DNA of 64,000 bases from assembly GCF_024346355.1 (NCBI RefSeq), contig NZ_JAGQCU010000003.1:62001-126000 (forward strand), in the 5' to 3' direction. Each line of letters opens with the position of its first letter. Position 1 is the first letter of the stretch. Both the position numbers and the translations under genes were made by a program. The DNA comes from Cyanobium sp. ATX 6A2. GTDB lineage: Bacteria; Cyanobacteriota; Cyanobacteriia; PCC-6307; Cyanobiaceae. This document shows positions 9,252 through 46,345 of this stretch, piece after piece. The notes below the pieces were generated by a model. That model was not told where the DNA came from. It did no database searches and worked only from the letters and a program-made list of their open reading frames with translations.

Positions 9252-11045
9252 TCAGCTGGCGGCCACCGCCAGGAGCCGCTGCACATCCTCGCGGCCGCTC
9301 TTGACCACGAAGTCGCCGAAACCTCGGCGCAGTCCGCCCTGGCGCCAGGCCAGCAGCAACGGTTCGAGGGTGGCTTCGAGGGCGTCGAGGGGCATCTTCT
9401 CCAGGTAGGGCTCAGCCAGCCGGCTGAGCTGGGCACTGCCCCCCAGCCAGAGCTGGTATTGATCCACACCGCTGCCCACCAGGCCGAGCTCGGCCATGTA
9501 GGGACGGGAGCAGCCGTTGGGACAGCCGGTCATGCGCACCAGAATCGGTTTGTCGATCTGCAGCCGGTCAAGCAGGGTTTCGAGCCGATCGAGCACCGCC
9601 GGGAAGATGCGCTCCGATTCGGTGACCGCCAGCCCGCACAGGGGCAGGGCCGGGCAGGCGATGCCGTGGCGGGAGAGCAGGGAGGTTTCATCGGGCTTCT
9701 CCCAGCCCAGGGTGGCCAGTTCTGCCTTGAGGCTGGAGCGCTGGGCGGTGCCGATATTGCAGAGCAGCACATCCTGATTCGGGGTGACGCGCACCTCGAG
9801 CTTGTAGGTGTCCACCAGGCGTCGCAGACCGGCCTTGCGTTCACCGCTGAGGCGCCCGCAGAGGAGGGGCAGGCCCACAAACCACAGTCCGGGGCTCTGG
9901 CGGTGCCAGCCCAGGTAGTCCTCGAGCTTGGCCCGTGGCTCATCGCGCAGGGAACGGATCGGGTGCTGGAAGTAGCTGGAGCGCAGCTGCTCGCGGAACC
10001 AGTCGACACCGTTGTCGTGGATGAGGTATTTCATGCGCGCATGGCGCCGCTGCTCGCGATCACCGTGGTCGCGCTGCACGGCCACAACCGCCTGCACCAG
10101 ATCGAGCACGTGCTCAAAGGCCACGTAACCCAAGGGATCGGCCGTACGGGCGAAGGTTTCCTCTTTGTTGTGGGTGCGGCCCATGCCGCCGCCTACATAC
10201 ACGTTGCAGCCCTGGGGGCGACCCTGGGGGTCGCAGAACAGCACCAGGCCGATGTCCTGGGTGAGCAGATCCACCGAGTTGTCACCCGGCACGGTCACGG
10301 CCACCTTGAACTTCCGCGGCATGTAGGTGCTGCCGTAGAGGGGCTCTGCGGCATCGCCGCTGAACACCTCACCCTCGCTCTGGCGCTCCTTGACGCGGCG
10401 GGCGCTGGCGCTGGGTTTGATCCGGTAGCTCAGGTCGCCATCCACCCAGAGGTCGAGGTAGGAGCCCTCTGCCGCCTGGGGGGCGAGCAGATCGGCAATA
10501 TCATCAGCGAGGTCGCGGGCGGCGGGGTAGGCGCCCTTGGCGTAGGGCGCCGCAGGGGCCATCACGTTGCGGTTGATGTCCCCGCAGGCGGCCAGGGTGG
10601 AGCCCAGGTGCCGCACGATGGTGCCGATCACCTCCTTGAGATTCTCCTTGCGCACCCCGTGCATCTGGAAGGCCTGACGGGTGGTGGCCCGCAGGGTGCC
10701 GTTCCCGAGCTGATCGGAGAGTGAATCGAGAGCCAGGTAGAGGTCGGCGGGGATGCGGCCGCCGGGACTGCGCAGACGCAGCATCATCTGCCAATCCTTC
10801 TCGCGGCCCTTCTGGCGGTTGTCGCGATTGTCCTGCTGGTAGGAGCCGTGGAACTTGAGGATCTGAATGGCCGGCTCGGTGAAATTGGGCCTGTCATTGC
10901 CCAGTTCCGTGCCCAACGGCTCGTGCAGATGGCCGCTGTTGCTCTTGAGCTGCTCGAACTTGGTGGGCTCGCTGCTGCGCCGATCGTTCTGGCTGGAGCC
11001 AGCAGGCAGTGCGGTTCCGGCAGGCACTTGGGCGGACACGGTCAC
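9252..11045 (-). CDS. sir: Ferredoxin-dependent assimilatory sulfite reductase
   Basis: This protein reduces sulfite to sulfide with six electrons from ferredoxin. It has the substrate-side segment TLRATTRQAFQMHGV, a central GGGMGRTHNKEETFARTADPLG region, and the siroheme/4Fe-4S cysteines in CPALPLCGLAVTE and RMTGCPNGCSRPYMAELG. The frame stays open to 11747 inside glyS, but family N-termini begin near VTVSAQVP, so I place the start at GTG 11045 (597 aa). A second GTG lies two codons in. The gene is divergent from glyS with a 106-base promoter gap. Confidence 0.95.
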   Translation of the reverse strand: MTVSAQVPAGTALPAGSSQNDRRSSEPTKFEQLKSNSGHLHEPLGTELGNDRPNFTEPAIQILKFHGSYQQDNRDNRQKGREKDWQMMLRLRSPGGRIPADLYLALDSLSDQLGNGTLRATTRQAFQMHGVRKENLKEVIGTIVRHLGSTLAACGDINRNVMAPAAPYAKGAYPAARDLADDIADLLAPQAAEGSYLDLWVDGDLSYRIKPSASARRVKERQSEGEVFSGDAAEPLYGSTYMPRKFKVAVTVPGDNSVDLLTQDIGLVLFCDPQGRPQGCNVYVGGGMGRTHNKEETFARTADPLGYVAFEHVLDLVQAVVAVQRDHGDREQRRHARMKYLIHDNGVDWFREQLRSSYFQHPIRSLRDEPRAKLEDYLGWHRQSPGLWFVGLPLLCGRLSGERKAGLRRLVDTYKLEVRVTPNQDVLLCNIGTAQRSSLKAELATLGWEKPDETSLLSRHGIACPALPLCGLAVTESERIFPAVLDRLETLLDRLQIDKPILVRMTGCPNGCSRPYMAELGLVGSGVDQYQLWLGGSAQLSRLAEPYLEKMPLDALEATLEPLLLAWRQGGLRRGFGDFVVKSGREDVQRLLAVAAS

Positions 11046-11151
11046 GCGGGCGATCCTCAACTCGCCGACCGTAGCGAACGGCAGTGGTTGCAGGCCGGTG
11101 AACCGGCTCCAGCTCAATCCATAGAGTTGGCGGCTGTCGTGGCCCCGTTCC

Positions 11152-13317
11152 GTGTCGTCGTTACTGCTGGAGATCGGAACCGAGGAGCTGCCCGCCGATT
11201 TCGTCCGACTTGCCCTGCCGCAGCTGCAGTCGCGGGTGGCGGCAGATCTGGCGGCGCAGCGTCTCGAGCCGGCGTTGCTGGAGGTCACCGGAACGCCACG
11301 TCGCCTGGTGGTGCTCGCCCAGGGGCTTGCGGCGGCCCAGCAGGATCGCGAGGAGGAACGCAAGGGCCCCCCGGCGGCCCAGGCCTTCCGGGATGGCCAG
11401 CCCACTGCGGCTGCCATCGGTTTCGCCCGGCGCTGCGGTGTGGGGCCTGAGGCCCTGAAGGTGCGGGACACAGCGAAGGGTCCGTTCGTGTTCGCCCATG
11501 CAGTGGAGCGGGGTGAGCCCACCGCCGCGGTGCTGGTGCGTCTCATCCCCGACTGGATCCAGGCCCTGCAGGGCCGGCGCTTCATGCGCTGGGGCGCGGG
11601 CGAGCGGCGCTTCTCCAGGCCCATCCGCTGGCTGGTGGCCATGCTCGATGCCGATGTCCTGCCGGTGCAGCTCGAGGGCTGCGATCCAGCGGTGATGGCC
11701 GGGGCCACAAGCCGGGGCCACCGCCTCGCGGGGGAGGCCGTGACCATCCGCTCGGCCGGCAGCTACCGCCAGAATCTGGCTGACGCGGGGGTGGAGGTGG
11801 AGCGCCGGGTGCGGGCCCAGGCCATCCGGGCGGCGGTGGATGCCGCCGCCGAGCAGCACCGGGCCAGGCCCGACCTGCCGGTTGAGCTGTTCGACGAACT
11901 GGTGGACCTGGTGGAGGCACCCCTGCCGATCGAGGGGCGGATCGATGACCGCTACCTCGATCTGCCGCCCGAAGTGCTGGGCACCGTGATGCGGGCCCAC
12001 CAGCGCTACGTGCCGCTCTACGAGCGGCGGGAGAGCAGCGATCCCCTTGCCCTGCACGCCCGCGGTGTTCTGCAACCGCGTTTCCTCTGCATCGCCAGCG
12101 GTCGCCCTGAGGCCAGTGCCACCATCCAGCGCGGCAATGAACGGGTGCTCAAGGCCCGGCTGGCGGACGCTGAGTTCTTTCTCAATGCCGATCGTGCCGT
12201 CCCCAGCATCGACCGCCGCGACCAGTTGGCCCGGGTCACCTTTGCTGAGGGACTGGGCTCGCTGCGCGATCGTGTGGAACGGCTGGAATGGTGCACCGAT
12301 GTGCTGCTGGAGCAGCTGGAGCTGCCTGCTGGCACCGCCGCCAACGCCCGCCGTGCCGCGCACCTCTGCAAGCACGATCTGGTGAGTCAGATGGTGGGGG
12401 AGTTCCCCGAGCTGCAGGGGGTGATGGGCGGGAAATATCTGTTGGCTGAAGGGGAAGCCCCCGAGGTGGCCCTGGCCGTGCTCGAGCACTACCGCCCCCG
12501 GGGCGCCGGCGACGCCCTTCCTCACTCTGACGCTGGAGCGGTGGTGGCCCTGGCCGAACGGCTGGAGCTGCTGCTGAGCATCTATGCCAAGGGGGAGCGG
12601 CCCAGCGGCTCCTCCGACCCCTACGCCCTGCGTCGTGCCGGCAATGGCCTGCTCCAGATCCTCTGGGACCGGGGATGGAACCTGGACCTGCTGGCGCTGC
12701 TGCGGCGGGGCACGGAGCACTGGGCCGAGCGGCTGCCTCAGTTCGCCATCGATGCCAGTGGCCTCCGCGCTGAGCTGGCCGAGTTGCTGCGCCAACGGAT
12801 GGTGAGCCTGCTGGAAGAGCAGGGGGTGGCGCCCGATCTGGTGCAAGCCGTGGCTGGAGAGGGGATTGCACCGGAGCGGCTGCTGCGCCAGCCGGCCGAT
12901 GCCAGGGTGCGTGCCGATCTTCTGGTGGAGCTGCGCTCCACTGGGCGTCTGGAGGGCGTACGCGCCGTGGTCACCCGTGCCGCCCGGCTGGCGGAGAACG
13001 CCGATCTGCCTCTGGATCAGCGCCAGGTCACGGGCAGCGTGAATGAACAGCTGTTCGAGAAGAGCAGCGAGTCCGCCATGCTGGCGGTGCTGCGAGAGCT
13101 CGAACCTCTGGCCCGTGATGGTGCCGCCCAGTGCTATGGCGAACTGGCCTCAGCCCTGGCCAGCAGCGCCGGCACCCTGGCCGATTTCTTTGACGGTGAT
13201 CAGAGCGTGATGGTGATGGTCGATGACCCCGCGCTGCGCCGCAACAGACTCTCGCTGCTGGCCCTGCTCCGCAATCAGGCGGCCGTGCTGGCCGATTTCA
13301 GCTGCATCAGCGGCTGA
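11152..13317 (+). CDS. glyS: Glycyl-tRNA synthetase beta subunit
   Basis: The 721-aa product begins with the typical LLLEIGTEELPADFVRLALPQLQ and contains FMRWGAGERRFSRPIRWLVAM and the HD-like stretch HLCKHDLVSQMVGEFPELQGVMG, all diagnostic of GlyS. With GlyQ (not in this window) it forms the alpha2beta2 enzyme that charges tRNA-Gly. The start is GTG 11152. The 3' end, including the stop codon, lies within a long perfect inverted repeat shared with the convergent chlP gene. Confidence 0.96.
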   Translation: MSSLLLEIGTEELPADFVRLALPQLQSRVAADLAAQRLEPALLEVTGTPRRLVVLAQGLAAAQQDREEERKGPPAAQAFRDGQPTAAAIGFARRCGVGPEALKVRDTAKGPFVFAHAVERGEPTAAVLVRLIPDWIQALQGRRFMRWGAGERRFSRPIRWLVAMLDADVLPVQLEGCDPAVMAGATSRGHRLAGEAVTIRSAGSYRQNLADAGVEVERRVRAQAIRAAVDAAAEQHRARPDLPVELFDELVDLVEAPLPIEGRIDDRYLDLPPEVLGTVMRAHQRYVPLYERRESSDPLALHARGVLQPRFLCIASGRPEASATIQRGNERVLKARLADAEFFLNADRAVPSIDRRDQLARVTFAEGLGSLRDRVERLEWCTDVLLEQLELPAGTAANARRAAHLCKHDLVSQMVGEFPELQGVMGGKYLLAEGEAPEVALAVLEHYRPRGAGDALPHSDAGAVVALAERLELLLSIYAKGERPSGSSDPYALRRAGNGLLQILWDRGWNLDLLALLRRGTEHWAERLPQFAIDASGLRAELAELLRQRMVSLLEEQGVAPDLVQAVAGEGIAPERLLRQPADARVRADLLVELRSTGRLEGVRAVVTRAARLAENADLPLDQRQVTGSVNEQLFEKSSESAMLAVLRELEPLARDGAAQCYGELASALASSAGTLADFFDGDQSVMVMVDDPALRRNRLSLLALLRNQAAVLADFSCISG

Positions 13318-41348: not shown

Positions 41349-41885
41349 TCAGCCCTGGGCGATCAGCTCCACCAGGGCTGCCGTGGGGGCCGGCCCGAGC
41401 ACCACGATGGCCGTCGCTCCGCTGGCCAGGGGGATCTCCAGCCGCACCGGCCCACCGTCCCGGGGCGCTCTGGCGAGTCCATCGAGGGCGAACTGGGCAC
41501 TGCCCGCCGGAATCGTCCCGGAATCGGGTGGTACCAGTTCTTGGCTGCGGTTGGGAAGGCTCCAGCGGCCGGCGAAGGCATCACGGAGCTCCAGTGCGGC
41601 GCTGTGACTCGGTGCCTGGCCTGGCTGTGGGGCAGGCGCCAGGGCCGTGAGCCGCAGCCGCGCGCCGTCGGGGTAGGCGGGATCGGGCTGATGGAACAGG
41701 CTCACGGCCCAGCGCTGCCCCTGGCCATCGCTGAGGGTCCATCGGGCTGGAGGCTCCGCGGCCCCGAGCGCGGCAGGCCAAAACACCACGGCCATCAGCA
41801 GCACCGCCACCACCACCAGAGCCCGCCCGCCGCGCCGCCGCCGGGGGGTTCCGCCTCGGGCGACGGCCTGCTGGGGATCGGCCAT
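41349..41885 (-). CDS. Exported DUF3122-like protein
   Basis: A basic N-terminus (TPRRRRGGRALVVVAVLLMA) leads into a signal anchor ending LGAAEP. The mature domain has WTLSDGQGQRWAVSLFHQPD, YPDGARLRLTAL and RWSLPNRSQELVPPDSG, with a C-terminal VRLEIPL strand, which I assign to the cyanobacterial DUF3122 group. The function is unknown. ATG 41885 gives 178 aa. It lies 63 bases upstream of the exported superoxide dismutase on the same strand, so the two may be cotranscribed. Confidence 0.7.
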   Translation of the reverse strand: MADPQQAVARGGTPRRRRGGRALVVVAVLLMAVVFWPAALGAAEPPARWTLSDGQGQRWAVSLFHQPDPAYPDGARLRLTALAPAPQPGQAPSHSAALELRDAFAGRWSLPNRSQELVPPDSGTIPAGSAQFALDGLARAPRDGGPVRLEIPLASGATAIVVLGPAPTAALVELIAQG

Positions 41886-42007
41886 GGGTGTGCTGCCGGA
41901 CTGATCGCGCTCCCTGAGCATGCAGCACCCAGCTGCGCTCAGCCACACAACGCCACAAACGATTGCGCTCTATGCGGCTATGGTCATAAAAGTTACGCAC
42001 CGCTGCC

Positions 42008-43129
42008 ATGGTCTCCGCCCCGGACACCGCCATCTCCCTGGTCGCCGCCGCCGGCGGTGGCCCCCTGCTGTTCCGGCAGCTCTTTGACGCCGACACCGGC
42101 ACCTTCACTTACCTGCTGGCCGAAGCGCCCAGCCGTCAGGGCGTGATCATCGACACCGTGTTTGAGCAACACGGGCGCGATCTCTCCCTGATCCGCGAGC
42201 TGGGCATCACCTTGGTGGCCTCCATCGACACCCACGTGCATGCCGACCACGTCACCGGCAGCTGGCTGATGCATGCCGCCACGGGCTGTGCGATCGGCGT
42301 GGCTGCGCTCGGCCGGGCCGAGAACGTGACCCTGCCGCTGCAACACGGCGACCGGGTTCCGTTCGGCAGCCGCCATCTGCAGGTGCGCAGCACCCCGGGG
42401 CACACCGATGGCTGCCTCAGCTACGTGCTCGATGACCAGTCGATGGCCTTCACGGGCGATGCCCTGCTGGTGCGGGGCTGCGGGCGCTGTGATTTCCAGC
42501 AGGGCGATGCCCACACCCTGTGGAGCTCGATCACCGGCCAGATCTTCTCCCTGCCCAATTCCTGCCTGCTGTACCCCGGCCACGACTACACCGGCCGCAC
42601 GGTCACCTCGGTGGTGGAGGAGAAGGCCTTCAACGCCCGTCTCGGCGCCGGTGCCAGCGAACGCGACTTCGTGGGCCACATGGAGAACATGAAGCTCCCC
42701 CACCCCCATCGCATCGCCGAGGCCCTGCCGGGCAACCTGCGTTCCGGCAAACCCACCACACCGCTGACAACCCCGGTGTGGGCGCCGGTGGTCCGCAGCT
42801 ATGCCGGCCTGCCGGAACTCACCCCGGCCTGGGTGGCGGCCCACCGTCAGGACGTGACGATCCTGGACGTGCGCTCCAGCGAGGAACTGGAGGGCCCGGA
42901 TGGTCACGTGGCCGGCAGCGTGGCCATCCCGCTACCCGATCTGGCCGATCGCCAGGCCGAGATACCCGGCGATCGCCCGGTGGTGGTGGTGTGCCACTCG
43001 GGCAGCCGTTCGGCCCTCGCCACCCAGCAGCTGCTCAAGGCGGGGCACTCCGAGGTGGCCAACCTGCGCGGTGGCCTGCGCCGCTGGGCCGACGAGGGCT
43101 ATCCCCTGGAGGGTCCCGAGCTGACCTGA
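42008..43129 (+). CDS. ETHE1-like persulfide dioxygenase fused to rhodanese
   Basis: The N-terminal half (to about residue 235) is a metallo-beta-lactamase-fold dioxygenase: THVHADHVTG (HxHxDH), STPGHTDGC and TGDALLVRGCGRCDFQQGD are persulfide-dioxygenase signatures with Fe(II) ligands. The C-terminal half is a rhodanese domain with active-site VVVCHSGSRSA. Together they would oxidise glutathione persulfide to sulfite and move sulfane sulfur. It heads a four-gene operon, and a TATGGT -10-like element lies 23 bases upstream of ATG 42008. Confidence 0.93.
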   Translation: MVSAPDTAISLVAAAGGGPLLFRQLFDADTGTFTYLLAEAPSRQGVIIDTVFEQHGRDLSLIRELGITLVASIDTHVHADHVTGSWLMHAATGCAIGVAALGRAENVTLPLQHGDRVPFGSRHLQVRSTPGHTDGCLSYVLDDQSMAFTGDALLVRGCGRCDFQQGDAHTLWSSITGQIFSLPNSCLLYPGHDYTGRTVTSVVEEKAFNARLGAGASERDFVGHMENMKLPHPHRIAEALPGNLRSGKPTTPLTTPVWAPVVRSYAGLPELTPAWVAAHRQDVTILDVRSSEELEGPDGHVAGSVAIPLPDLADRQAEIPGDRPVVVVCHSGSRSALATQQLLKAGHSEVANLRGGLRRWADEGYPLEGPELT

Positions 43130-43133
43130 CCCC

Positions 43134-43155
43134 AGCCCCGGCTGAGGCCGGGGCT
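43134..43155 (+). terminator. Strong hairpin after the persulfide dioxygenase gene
   Basis: AGCCCCGGC-TGAG-GCCGGGGCT is a perfect 9-bp GC stem with a 4-base loop, five bases after the stop. It is followed only by CCCGTTTCC, so termination is probably partial. It could set the ratio of the first gene to the three downstream genes or stabilise the upstream mRNA. Confidence 0.6.
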
Positions 43156-43215
43156 CCCGTTTCCACGTTCTGTCCATCCACATCGTTGCCCGATCGCCAA
43201 GCGATCGCCATCCCC

Positions 43216-43755
43216 ATGACCACCACCCGATCCATGCAGCACGCCAGCAGCGTGTCGGCCCACACCCTCGCCGAGCAGCTCGCCAACCGTGAGGTGACGG
43301 TGATCGACGTGCGCGAACCGGTGGAGTACGCCTCCGGTCACATCGACGGCAGCCTCAACATCCCCCTGACCCGACTCCCCCAGGCCGTTCTGCCCCAGGG
43401 GCCCCTGGTGCTCGTGTGTCAGAGCGGCAACCGCAGCAGCCGTGCCGTGCGGATGCTGCAGGCCCAGGGCCACGCCCAGCCGGTGACCGACCTGGAGGGC
43501 GGCGTGCCGTCGTGGGAGCAGGCCGGCCTGGCACTGCGCCGGCTCAAGGGAGCGCCGCTGCCACTGATGCGCCAGGTGCAGATCGCCGCCGGCTCGCTGG
43601 TGCTGCTCGGGCTGCTCCTCCATGCCACGGTGGCGCCGGTCTGGATCCTGCTCAGCTGGATCGTGGGAGCGGGCCTGGTGTTCGCGGGGATCAGCGGCTT
43701 CTGTGGCATGGCCCGTCTGCTGGCGGCCATGCCCTGGAACCGGATCTCCCTGTGA
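43216..43755 (+). CDS. Membrane-anchored rhodanese (YgaP-like, rhodanese plus DUF2892)
   Basis: Residues 15-110 form a rhodanese domain (VIDVREPVEYASGHIDGSLN, active-site LVCQSGNRSSRA). The C-terminal part has two transmembrane segments of the DUF2892 type (IAAGSLVLLGLLLHATVAPV, ILLSWIVGAGLVFAGISGFC). This architecture matches E. coli YgaP, an inner-membrane sulfurtransferase. ATG 43216 follows the dioxygenase gene by 86 bases, and the stop overlaps the TauE/SafE gene by four bases. Confidence 0.9.
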   Translation: MTTTRSMQHASSVSAHTLAEQLANREVTVIDVREPVEYASGHIDGSLNIPLTRLPQAVLPQGPLVLVCQSGNRSSRAVRMLQAQGHAQPVTDLEGGVPSWEQAGLALRRLKGAPLPLMRQVQIAAGSLVLLGLLLHATVAPVWILLSWIVGAGLVFAGISGFCGMARLLAAMPWNRISL

Positions 43756-44594
43756 TCGACGCCAGCTCGGCCCTGCTGCTGGGCGGCGGGACGCTGATCG
43801 GCTTTCTGTTGGCCGTGCTCGGTGCTGGCGGGTCGATCCTGCTGTTGCCACTGCTGGTGAGCGGGGCCGGGCTGCCCACCCGTGAGGCCGTGCCCCTGTC
43901 GTTGATCGTGGTGGGGCTGCTCGCCCTGGCCAACACCCCCCCCTATCTGCGGCGGGGCTGGGTCGCACCCCGCCCCGCCCTGCTGCTGGGGGTACCGGCC
44001 CTCGCTGGCAGCTGGGTCGGCGGATCGCTGGTGAAGGCGGGCGTGATCCCCGAGCCCCTGCAGCTGGCCCTGTTCACGGCGGCGGCGTTGCTGGCCGCCT
44101 GGCTGCTCACCCGTCGTGCCGCCCTGGTGGAGGGTGCCCTCAAGCCCGAGCCCAAGGGGCGGGTTGGGCCCCTGGCCCTGCAGGGGGTGCTGGTGGGACT
44201 GCTCACCGGCATCGCCGGCGTGGGCGGTGGCTTCGCCATCGTGCCTGCTCTGGTGCTGCTGGCGGGTCTGCCGATGGCCGTGGCCAGCGGCACCAGCCTG
44301 CTGCTGATTGCCAGCAATGCTCTGGTGGCCCTGCTGGCCCTCGGCCACTGGCCCAGGGAGGTGCTGCCGCTGCTGATCCCCCTGCTGCTCGGCGGGGCCG
44401 TGGGGGGGGGGGCCGGCCAGTGGCTGGCCCCCCACCTGCCGGAGCTGCGGCTGCGTCAGGGATTCTCAGCCCTGCTGCTGGGTTCTGCGCTGCTCACCGG
44501 CGTGGAGGCATGGCGCCGTCAGATCCCGGCAGCCGAGGCCACCCGCCCTGCTCCTGTCTCCATTCCCTCCCCTGTCACGTCCCCTTCGCCATGA
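43752..44594 (+). CDS. TauE/SafE family sulfite or sulfur-anion exporter
   Basis: The 280-aa polytopic protein has the TauE/SafE start GGGTLIGFLLAVLGAGGSIL, a duplicated motif in the second half (GVLVGLLTGIAGVGGGFAIV) and about eight membrane segments. In this operon it likely exports sulfite made by the dioxygenase, although other family members move organosulfonates. GTG 43752 overlaps the rhodanese stop and TGA 44594 overlaps the next ATG, so genes two to four are translationally coupled. Confidence 0.9.
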   Translation: MIDASSALLLGGGTLIGFLLAVLGAGGSILLLPLLVSGAGLPTREAVPLSLIVVGLLALANTPPYLRRGWVAPRPALLLGVPALAGSWVGGSLVKAGVIPEPLQLALFTAAALLAAWLLTRRAALVEGALKPEPKGRVGPLALQGVLVGLLTGIAGVGGGFAIVPALVLLAGLPMAVASGTSLLLIASNALVALLALGHWPREVLPLLIPLLLGGAVGGGAGQWLAPHLPELRLRQGFSALLLGSALLTGVEAWRRQIPAAEATRPAPVSIPSPVTSPSP

Positions 44595-45037
44595 CCAGCA
44601 CCCGACAGTTCCGCTTCCGGCTGCAGAGCCAGCACCCGGCCCCCGAGCGCACCAGCACCGATCTGGCTGTGCAGTGGTTGAACGCTGAGGACAACTGGGA
44701 GCCTCAGAACCTCAGCCTCACCATGCCAGGGTTCCGGATCTACCTGATCTCCCTGCTGCTCTGTCAGCACTACTACCTGGTGGCCAATGCCCGTGAGCGC
44801 CAGCTTCCCCTGGCACGGGTGGAGGCGGAGTTTTCCGTCACGGCCACTCAGGACTGGATCCTGAAGAGCGTGATCGGCACGTTCCATGTGCAGTTGGATG
44901 CGGGGGATGGAAGAGGCCTGCCGGCACAGGGATCAGAGGCCGACATCGCTGGAATCCAGGAGCGGATGAAGGCCTGCCCGGTATCGCGCAACCTTCAGGA
45001 AGGGGTGGAGAAGATCACCACGATTCAGATCAGATGA
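44591..45037 (+). CDS. OsmC-like protein
   Basis: The 148-aa product matches the OsmC/Ohr fold: LLLCQHYYLVANARERQLPL carries the first Cys and MKACPVSRNL the second (CPVS is diagnostic). Such proteins reduce organic hydroperoxides or handle thiols. Within a persulfide operon the substrate may be a persulfide or polysulfide. ATG 44591 overlaps the exporter stop. Confidence 0.85.
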   Translation: MTSTRQFRFRLQSQHPAPERTSTDLAVQWLNAEDNWEPQNLSLTMPGFRIYLISLLLCQHYYLVANARERQLPLARVEAEFSVTATQDWILKSVIGTFHVQLDAGDGRGLPAQGSEADIAGIQERMKACPVSRNLQEGVEKITTIQIR

Positions 45038-45060
45038 CAGCACAGATGATTGCTGTGATC
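45033..45060 (+). terminator. Possible weak terminator of the persulfide operon
   Basis: ACAGCA (45037-45042) and TGCTGT (45051-45056) pair around an 8-base loop, extended by GAT/ATC across a G-G mismatch, beginning at the OsmC stop codon. There is no T tract, and the convergent tRNA gene follows. Confidence 0.35.
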
Positions 45061-45081
45061 CGATGATGAAGCACACCGAAA

Positions 45082-45155
45082 TGGCTCGGGGGAGACTTGA
45101 ACTCCCGACCTTGGGGTTATGAATCCCACGCTCTAACCAGCTGAGCTACCGAGCC
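45082..45155 (-). tRNA. tRNA-Met (anticodon CAT)
   Basis: The minus strand folds into a complete 74-base cloverleaf: acceptor stem GGCTCGG/CCGAGCC, D arm GCTC/GAGC, anticodon arm with loop TTCATAA, five-base variable loop AGGTC and T arm GGGAG-TTCAAGT-CTCCC. CCA is not encoded. Anticodon CAT allows elongator Met, initiator or lysidine-modified Ile. The paired first acceptor base rules out an initiator, and the overall sequence resembles elongator tRNA-Met. A tRNA-Ile2 identity cannot be fully excluded by eye. Confidence 0.92.
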
Positions 45156-45172
45156 GCGGTGTGTGGAGTGTA

Positions 45173-46345
45173 TCAGGCGCGGGGTGGCAGGAAGGTGAGC
45201 GGATTCACAGCACTGCCGCCAGCTGGATGGATTTCGAAGTGCAGGTGAGGACCAGTGCTGTTGCCGGTGCTGCCCATCAGGGCGATCACCGTGCCCTGGC
45301 GCACCTCCTGCCCGGCGCTCACCATCAGACGGCTGTTGTGGGCATAGAGGGAACGGCTGCCATCGGGATGCTGCAGGGTCACCAGATAGCCGAAGCCACC
45401 CGAGTTCCAGCCGGAAAACACCACGCGCCCAGTGCGGGCAGCCTTGATCGGGGTACCGACGTTGTTGGCCATGTCGATGCCGCGGTGCATGCGGCCCCAG
45501 CGCCAGCCGTAGCCAGAGGTGAACACCCCGCTGGTGGGCCAGATCCAGGTGTGGGCACCGTGATCATGAAAGGGCTGCTGGGGTTGGCCGAGGTTCGGTT
45601 GGTCGGGCCAGCTCAGGCCGCCGCTGGTGCTGGGCCTCAGGCCGAGCACGGCACGCTGACGCACCGGGGCCGACTGGACCAGCTTGATCTCAGTTCCGGC
45701 CACCAGCCTGGCGGTGTCCAGGCCGGGATTGAAGCGCACCAACTCCTGCATGGTGATCCCGTAGCGCTGCGCGATCTGCAGCAGGGAGTCACCCAGGCGG
45801 ACAACCCCTTTGGTCTGCACCGGCGGTGGAGCGCTGGGCAGCGGCGGCGTGCGGCGCACATCGGTGTTGTCGAGGGAGGCGATGCGCTGAGCCGCCTGGC
45901 TCTGCTGGTTGGGCAGCACCACCCACTCACCGCTCTGGAAGCGGTGGCTGGTGCCCACGTCATTGAGATTGGCCAGGGACTGGCTCTGCAGCCCCATCTG
46001 CCGCGACAGGTCGGCCACACTCACCGGCTGACGAACGCGCACCCAGAGGCGATCGGTGGACGGCAGGCCCGCCAACAGCTCCCCGTCCGACATGGGACTG
46101 CTGGACAGGGGACTGCGGGTCAGGGGGGGTTCCACCTGTGCTGCCGCCTCAGGGGTTGCAAGCGGCGCGGTGGAGAGGTTGCTGACGACGGGGGCTGCCA
46201 AGCCGGATGGAACGGAAAGCAGCCGCTGGTCGAGCGGCAACTCTTCGGGGTTCCGCTGGGAAACAGCGACACCGATGGCGGGGATAGCAACAACTCCAGG
46301 CAGGAGAAGTAGCAAACCGGTATGAAGTGCGTGTTTTGGCTTCAT
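45173..46345 (-). CDS. LysM and M23 peptidase domain protein
   Basis: The 390-aa exported protein has a signal peptide (LLLLLPGVVAIPAIGVAVS), two LysM-like segments (VRVRQPVSVADLSRQMGLQS near 100-145 and GVVRLGDSLLQIAQRYGITM near 185-230) and a C-terminal M23 domain with HRGIDMANNVGTPI and TGPHLHFEIHPAG (zinc ligands). It is probably a peptidoglycan endopeptidase or a NlpD/EnvC-like amidase activator. The H-x-H pair looks intact, so activity is plausible. ATG 46345 starts the signal peptide. Confidence 0.92.
   Translation of the reverse strand: MKPKHALHTGLLLLLPGVVAIPAIGVAVSQRNPEELPLDQRLLSVPSGLAAPVVSNLSTAPLATPEAAAQVEPPLTRSPLSSSPMSDGELLAGLPSTDRLWVRVRQPVSVADLSRQMGLQSQSLANLNDVGTSHRFQSGEWVVLPNQQSQAAQRIASLDNTDVRRTPPLPSAPPPVQTKGVVRLGDSLLQIAQRYGITMQELVRFNPGLDTARLVAGTEIKLVQSAPVRQRAVLGLRPSTSGGLSWPDQPNLGQPQQPFHDHGAHTWIWPTSGVFTSGYGWRWGRMHRGIDMANNVGTPIKAARTGRVVFSGWNSGGFGYLVTLQHPDGSRSLYAHNSRLMVSAGQEVRQGTVIALMGSTGNSTGPHLHFEIHPAGGSAVNPLTFLPPRA

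Follow-up and report, generated by a model that had tools for sequence, protein, structure and literature searches.

A pdo-rhd-tauE-osmC operon of Cyanobium sp. ATX 6A2 and its relatives: a probable persulfide-removal unit with a candidate ArsR-type operator

Introduction

What do a persulfide dioxygenase, a membrane rhodanese, a TauE-type membrane protein and an OsmC-like protein accomplish together when their genes stand head to tail in a picocyanobacterium? This question is raised by a locus of Cyanobium sp. ATX 6A2 at positions 42008–45037 of the window, i.e., the whole stretch of 64,000 nucleotides analysed here (contig NZ_JAGQCU010000003.1, positions 62,001–126,000), to which all coordinates refer unless another contig is named. 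A sequence-only reading of this DNA had proposed a role in oxidising persulfide and exporting the resulting sulfite. The gene families, their clustering in related genomes and what is known of the families back this proposal, and we consider it probable that the locus as a whole is an inducible operon for the removal of persulfide.

Gene products of the operon

The four genes are open frames on the plus strand, as the sequence-only reading had it. The first, pdo (42008–43129, 373 amino acids), encodes a persulfide dioxygenase (PDO) fused to a rhodanese, of the BpPRF type, with Pfam Lactamase_B and a C-terminal Rhodanese domain in one chain. Compared with PDB sequences by phmmer, it matches BpPRF (5ve3) with an E value of 3.8e-122, colinear across residues 15–366. 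BpPRF (PDB 5ve3–5ve5) is, as we take it, the enzyme of Burkholderia phytofirmans. The motifs THVHADH, PGHT, TGDAL, YPGHDY and CHSGSRS are all present, and presumably constitute the iron (metal) ligands and the cysteine loop of the rhodanese active site. The Blh-type model NF040641 reaches 84.7 bits on this protein, its cut-off being 625. Judged by its sequence, the enzyme most likely oxidises glutathione persulfide (GSSH) to sulfite.

The second gene, rhd (43216–43755, plus strand, 179 amino acids), encodes a YgaP-like membrane-anchored rhodanese (Pfam Rhodanese, E 3.4e-19; YgaP-like_TM, 25.4 bits, barely above the cut-off of 25.3) with the loop CQSGNR at residue 68. The third, tauE (43752–44594, plus strand, 280 amino acids, GTG start), encodes a TauE/SafE membrane protein (Pfam TauE, E 9.3e-36), a putative exporter of sulfite or sulfur oxyanions. 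It shares four nucleotides with rhd (GTGA at 43752) and four with the last gene, osmC (44591–45037, plus strand, 148 amino acids, ATG start; ATGA at 44591), so that the overlaps reported earlier for the last three genes can be read directly in the sequence. The start codons of rhd, tauE and osmC are choices, longer open frames extending upstream of each.

The product of osmC stays below the Pfam cut-off for OsmC (E 0.002; 19.0 bits, cut-off 27.5). Its AlphaFold model, built with 27 aligned homologues (predicted local distance difference test score 86.8), has its best structural match in 3cje (Z 11.2, root mean square deviation 2.8, 119 aligned), and the Foldseek and VIA lists are both headed by OsmC/Ohr structures. 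VIA ranks 1–19 are titled OsmC/Ohr or similar, save 1ml8 and 2egt, and the unrelated S-adenosylmethionine synthetases start at rank 20, with Z up to 8.3. According to this model the protein has the OsmC fold; the earlier gene identities thus hold for all four genes, by Pfam for the first three and by predicted fold for the fourth. The protein is distant from characterised OsmC/Ohr proteins. Among PDB sequences, a profile of its alignment recovered no OsmC protein, the best hit being a ribosomal protein (E 0.33), and the protein had no match among 72,556 plasmid records. All 29 aligned homologues keep its cysteines C58 and C129, and an ordinary OsmC-family gene is present separately in this genome, on contig C43. 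Little more can be said of the protein than that it has the OsmC fold, carries two cysteines and is linked to the exporter and the membrane rhodanese; the thiol or hydroperoxide clean-up that the sequence-only reading assigned to it is a guess.

As a separate observation, the genome encodes a second PDO-rhodanese, 71% identical to the first, on contig C12 (locus L078, 8796–10832). It is preceded by two short frames of the YeeE/YedE type, the first a Sulf_transp protein and the second judged by eye. Among relatives, broken or partial pdo copies, split in two or interrupted by a stop codon, are found in G148:C71, G102:C1:790792 and G005:C10, which suggests decaying duplicates.

Conservation of the gene order in related genomes

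For comparison, 151 genomes of the same family were used, this genome (G000, 3.0 Mb) included, with hit thresholds of at least 326 bits for PDO, 120 bits for ArsR and more than 300 bits for SQR. PDO is found in 55 of them and the OsmC-like protein in 27, all of which belong to the 55. The order pdo-rhd-tauE-osmC recurs in related Cyanobium and Synechococcus genomes, at times minus tauE, osmC or pdo; the conserved adjacency on which the operon interpretation depended is therefore present. Since 23 fetched loci hold the four genes intact and consecutive, the cluster is not due to chance. With start codons chosen by alignment, exact overlaps of four nucleotides occur among these 23 loci at 16 rhd-tauE, 13 tauE-osmC and 3 pdo-rhd junctions.

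Furthermore, a scan of genome_contigs with the OsmC alignment yielded 46 loci. The scan, run with two short peptide patterns, recovers only relatives in which these are kept; the loci share strains with the 151 genomes, and several are truncated at contig ends. Every one of the 46 contains rhd or tauE, and by gene content pdo is present in 36, rhd in 39, tauE in 42, arsR in 34 and sqr in 15. Cyanobacterial names (Cyanobium, Synechococcus, Vulcanococcus, Aphanothece and unnamed cyanobacteria) stand on 44 loci. The remaining two, L217 and L226, come from metagenome bins labelled Bifidobacterium breve and Chitinophagaceae, and the picocyanobacterial operons found there are probably mis-binned contigs.

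Probable promoter element and candidate ArsR-family regulator

Upstream of pdo, separated from its start codon by 13 bp, lies a conserved 26-bp element, TCTATGCGGCTATGGTCATAAAAGTT (41969–41994, plus strand), whose core TATGCGGCTATGGTCATA (41971–41988, plus strand) forms an imperfect inverted repeat, TATG-N10-CATA. Its sequence and placement make it likely that this element is the promoter/operator of the operon. It precedes 46 of the 53 pdo genes examined, by a pattern drawn by eye from these same loci, and for this reason other tests are more telling. Among the seven genes without it, L096 has a copy with one mismatch and the other six, which include the second pdo of this genome, have no adjoining rhd or tauE.

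The core TATGCGNNTATNNTCATA has a single exact match in the 3.0 Mb genome. Across the 151 genomes there are 42 exact matches, in 37 genomes, every one of which carries both PDO and ArsR. For 37 of these matches, a pdo of the same strand begins at most 250 bp downstream; two others precede tauE-osmC units (G090, G148), and two precede rhd-osmC units that are separate from pdo (G143, G048); in G048, pdo lies about 1.3 kb upstream of rhd-osmC and has its own copy of the core. The last match is at a contig end of G128, adjoining arsR and sqr. When one mismatch is allowed, the true pattern matches more than 80 times in the 55 PDO genomes and its reversed form twice (as read from the table); scattered one-mismatch matches of the true pattern also occur in genomes that lack PDO.

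Beside the operon, no gene for a cognate thiol-based repressor was found in the window. Relatives have, upstream of pdo and divergent from it, a gene for an ArsR-family protein of about 112 amino acids; this gene stands between sqr and pdo where sqr is present. The relative of this protein in the present genome (78% identical to the G083 query) is encoded in an unlinked position on contig C4. ArsR is found in 52 of the 55 PDO genomes versus 1 of the 96 others. The protein scores 78.9 bits with the general ArsR/SmtB model NF033788, above the cut-off of 55. Its alignment of 42 rows, in which a few strains appear twice, has three conserved cysteine columns, filled in 42, 41 and 42 rows. The first of these cysteines aligns with a cysteine of YgaV, which we take to lie in helix alpha-2.

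Moreover, the arsR promoters themselves, including that of this genome, contain a dyad of the same spacing as the pdo element, with differing inner bases: TATG/AATG-N10-CATA or a near form occurs at most about 60 nucleotides from the start in 35 of 38 promoters, compared with 8 hits in 7,600 shuffled stretches of 130 nucleotides. Before the pattern was widened in the light of these sequences, a stricter form had given 24 of 42, and the 38-row set excludes duplicate rows. That the element is instead a plain promoter of the sigma-70 type, kept by descent and unrelated to ArsR, strikes us as rather unlikely. It does hold a hexamer, TATG(G/C)T, at a −10-like place, and the element ends 12–17 bp before the assigned start codon in most loci, by a pattern taken from the same loci. 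However, the element is also found before the rhd-osmC and tauE-osmC units apart from pdo, and the arsR promoters share the spacing of its dyad. BigR is reported to bind the −10 region of its own operon (PMC5823870), which fits an operator that holds a −10-like hexamer.

At two other loci, L145 and L147, a different inverted repeat, TTTATGC-N7-CGCATTAA, was seen by eye upstream of SQR; it is possibly a related operator.

Sulfide:quinone oxidoreductase-like genes

The sequence-only reading stated that neither SQR nor a BigR/ArsR regulator is nearby. This is true of the window, but the genome carries SQR-like genes and a gene for an ArsR-family regulator on other contigs. An SQR-like gene, followed by a rhodanese gene, lies on contig C12 (G000:C12:40301–41623, 441 amino acids); its product matches mitochondrial SQR (6mo6/6oi5) with an E value of 1.2e-83 and flavocytochrome c with only 3.2e-21, and we take it to be of type II. 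A second SQR-like gene, 46% identical to the first, is present on contig C4. With these two genes, the organism can probably make persulfide from sulfide. The FAD-dependent oxidoreductase SYNPCC7002_RS15585 on pAQ7 of PCC 7002, which we assume to be the SQR of that strain, gives weak matches in this genome (E 6.8e-15 with the C4 gene; E 8.6e-7).

A type II SQR hit above 300 bits is found in 40 genomes of the family, and sqr stands just upstream of pdo in many relatives. In at least 10 of the 40 the two genes lie within 1.2 kb on the same strand and in at least 15 within 15 kb, both being lower bounds as distances were computed from 25 of the 70 pdo places.

The surroundings of the C12 gene (L077, G000:C12:34000–50000) hold, next to the downstream rhodanese gene, a divergent TPMT-type methyltransferase gene, two DUF3122-like paralogues, another rhodanese gene and one for a Tll0287-like protein. 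The region is a second sulfide island.

Proposed mechanism and evidence against it

Taken together, we propose that an SQR encoded elsewhere would oxidise sulfide to persulfide, or that persulfide would arise intracellularly. PDO-rhodanese would turn glutathione persulfide into sulfite, its rhodanese domain and the YgaP-like rhodanese would shuttle sulfane sulfur, and TauE would export sulfite or related anions. A persulfide or a peroxide is the probable substrate of the OsmC-like protein, which would use its two cysteines. The ArsR repressor with its three conserved cysteines most likely binds TATG-N10-CATA over the promoter and would release it once reactive sulfur accumulates and modifies these cysteines. 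The enzymatic steps are proposed on the basis of family knowledge and of results for Synechococcus (Picosynechococcus) PCC 7002: its SQR and PDO together converted sulfide into sulfite and thiosulfate when produced in E. coli (PMC7042703), and polysulfide raised the expression of its pdo, rhod and tauE (PMC12466478).

Several observations weigh against this interpretation. The genomes compared are related and the counts are not independent of each other. In this genome a gap of 86 bp with a hairpin sets pdo apart from rhd-tauE-osmC, and 28 of the 55 PDO genomes lack the OsmC-like protein. The element could be a promoter only. The dyad is found in 1 of 30 SQR promoters, that of this genome being the one, and for this reason we do not count SQR among the members of the regulon. 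The closest NCBIfam model to the C12 SQR is the selenoprotein subtype of SQR type III (182.6 bits, cut-off 525). The ArsR protein stays under the cut-off of the NCBIfam BigR equivalog (45 versus 155 bits), and its best PDB matches are the repressor SmtB and Rv0081. The sensing cysteines of BigR are Cys42 and Cys108, and neither the second nor the last conserved cysteine of the ArsR protein could be placed on those of BigR. In PCC 7002, sqr fell with polysulfide while pdo rose (PMC12466478).

Finally, in 15 of the 55 PDO genomes type II SQR gives no hit above 300 bits. This also speaks for a different role of the operon, namely the assimilation of thiosulfate or sulfane sulfur, or housekeeping, with constitutive expression and the dioxygenase as an overflow valve; the second pdo of this genome, which follows a Sulf_transp (YeeE/YedE-type) gene and is without the element, points in the same direction. 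The exporter of the TauE type, the pairing with ArsR and the conserved dyad element argue against such a role, and we regard it as improbable.

Likewise, the similarity of the ArsR protein to SmtB would suit an operon that answers peroxide or metal stress, with ArsR sensing hydrogen peroxide or a metal and OsmC as the key peroxidase. Genes for an Fe/Mn superoxide dismutase, a peroxiredoxin and a ferritin, neighbours of the operon in this window, speak for it too, as does RexT, a cyanobacterial ArsR protein that senses hydrogen peroxide (PMC8960804); an OsmC-like protein of Rhodococcus, moreover, was treated as part of the oxidative-stress defence (PMC5157978). The first conserved cysteine of the ArsR protein, aligned with that of YgaV, presumably lies in alpha-2, which argues against this explanation, as does the lack of such an OsmC in 28 of the 55 PDO genomes. 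The sensing cysteine pair of RexT is instead placed in helix alpha-3 (PMC8960804). On balance, a peroxide or metal response as the main role of the operon seems very improbable, and persulfide removal is the reading that we follow.

A divergent DUF3122-like neighbour

A DUF3122-like gene (41349–41948, minus strand, 199 amino acids) is transcribed away from the operon and shares with it the 59-bp intergenic region that contains the element. The match of its product to Pfam DUF3122 is below the cut-off (E 0.0016), and its aligned homologues match DUF3122 at E ≤ 0.1 in 23 of 23 cases, the best at 1e-12. Given its hydrophobic N-terminal segment, the protein is probably exported. Relatives are found in 33 of the 151 genomes, and all 33 carry PDO. 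A gene for PDO, SQR-II or ArsR is at most 5 kb away from 35 of the 58 DUF3122-like hits and at most 10 kb away from 42, compared with about 0.8 and 1.6 expected on random placing; these counts include the query, itself picked for its location, and come from related genomes that are not independent. Among 40 of these hits compared for orientation, 12 have a divergent pdo or sqr no more than 1.5 kb away (in G076 with arsR between). Fold searches with the model of the protein gave no clear match (best Foldseek E 0.026, best VIA Z 7.6), and for this reason no function is drawn for it. A literature search, with most subscription journals outside its reach, found no paper naming DUF3122.

More speculatively, the operon might belong to a picocyanobacterial regulon for sulfide oxidation, in which the OsmC protein would serve as a dedicated persulfide reductase or sulfur carrier rather than as a hydroperoxidase, the DUF3122-like protein would handle the extruded sulfur species outside the cytoplasm, and one ArsR operator would be used even where arsR has been relocated. 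We put this forward as a tentative extension.

Further features of the window

The GC-rich hairpin in the gap between pdo and rhd (43136–43153, plus strand) was assessed by folding against shuffles: the gap folds with a z-score of −2.47, 5 of 200 shuffles being equally good. As a terminator it was ruled out, having no T run, and pdo and rhd overlap in 3 of the 23 relatives; it may act by attenuation. Consensus scans of 41700–45300 found no match to a sigma-70 promoter or to a terminator, the hairpin in the gap included. Downstream, the operon is followed by a tRNA-Met gene (45082–45155, minus strand; ARAGORN). Upstream, between 37951 and 41336, are genes for a Crp-like regulator, a ferritin, a SepF-like protein, a peroxiredoxin and an Fe/Mn superoxide dismutase.

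The ferredoxin-type assimilatory sulfite reductase (Sir), which the sequence-only reading named as a maker of sulfide whose overflow the operon could guard against, is encoded at 9252–11747 on the minus strand, as identified by NF010029 (737.6 bits, cut-off 457); TIGR02042 reaches 731.0 bits with a cut-off of 731.5. The Sir frame has 831 amino acids and the best models align only from about residue 254, leaving the N-terminal 250 residues unmatched; an over-early start call could possibly account for this.

Comparison with known systems and significance

Systems of this kind are already known: a circuit of PDO, rhodanese, TauE and a CsoR-like repressor from Streptomyces, the bigR operon from Xylella, and an OsmC partner from Rhodococcus. 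PCC 7002 has the cyanobacterial SQR-PDO route with pdo, rhod and tauE. Unlike the SQR of the present genome, which is nearer to mitochondrial SQR, that of PCC 7002 is called type I, and an OsmC partner is not mentioned in the available text (PMC7042703, PMC12466478). In 130 cyanobacterial genomes, SQR was reported in 59, PDO in 85 and both in 54 (PMC7042703/PMC12466478). The ScPDO circuit of Streptomyces coelicolor likewise comprises a PDO-rhodanese fusion, a separate rhodanese, TauE and a thiol-based repressor of their promoters, but this repressor is CsoR-like instead of ArsR-like, its operator is ATACC-N6-GGTAT, and the accessible sections do not mention OsmC (PMC7533328). The bigR operon of Xylella and Agrobacterium shares a dioxygenase with a sulfur transferase, a TauE-related exporter and an ArsR-type repressor at the −10 region; its Blh is a DUF442-ETHE1 protein, whereas the enzyme here is a PDO-rhodanese (PMC5823870). 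Moreover, the regulator found here is unlinked and below the cut-off of the BigR model. The likeness to BpPRF, also a PDO-rhodanese fusion, covers the enzyme alone.

An organic disulfide was reported to induce together the following products of one cluster in Rhodococcus erythropolis MI2: an OsmC-like protein, SQR, a metallo-beta-lactamase/rhodanese fusion and a rhodanese. This DTDB-induced cluster likewise joins OsmC to SQR, a dioxygenase-rhodanese and a rhodanese; it differs in coming from an actinobacterium, in its gene order and in including a flavin amine oxidase, and TauE is not mentioned in the part available (PMC5157978). By analogy, and with the likeness of the OsmC-like proteins taken from the published description, this cluster may serve as an independent precedent for the OsmC partner.

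A literature search done mainly by title and weighted to open access found no description of a picocyanobacterial version of this gene set, and nothing on sulfide quinone together with Cyanobium. What is apparently undescribed is an operon of this lineage with its own OsmC subfamily, the pair of ArsR and element with an unlinked regulator, and the DUF3122-like neighbour.

Picocyanobacteria are important primary producers. Sulfide inhibits oxygenic photosynthesis, as stated in the abstract of PMC8002359. With a conserved sulfide operon and a candidate regulator and operator at hand, the sulfide tolerance of picocyanobacteria becomes directly testable, and the divergent OsmC and DUF3122 families gain a functional context. 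Moreover, with its regulator unlinked, the operon would exemplify in nature how a regulatory gene can be lost from the neighbourhood while its site stays in place.

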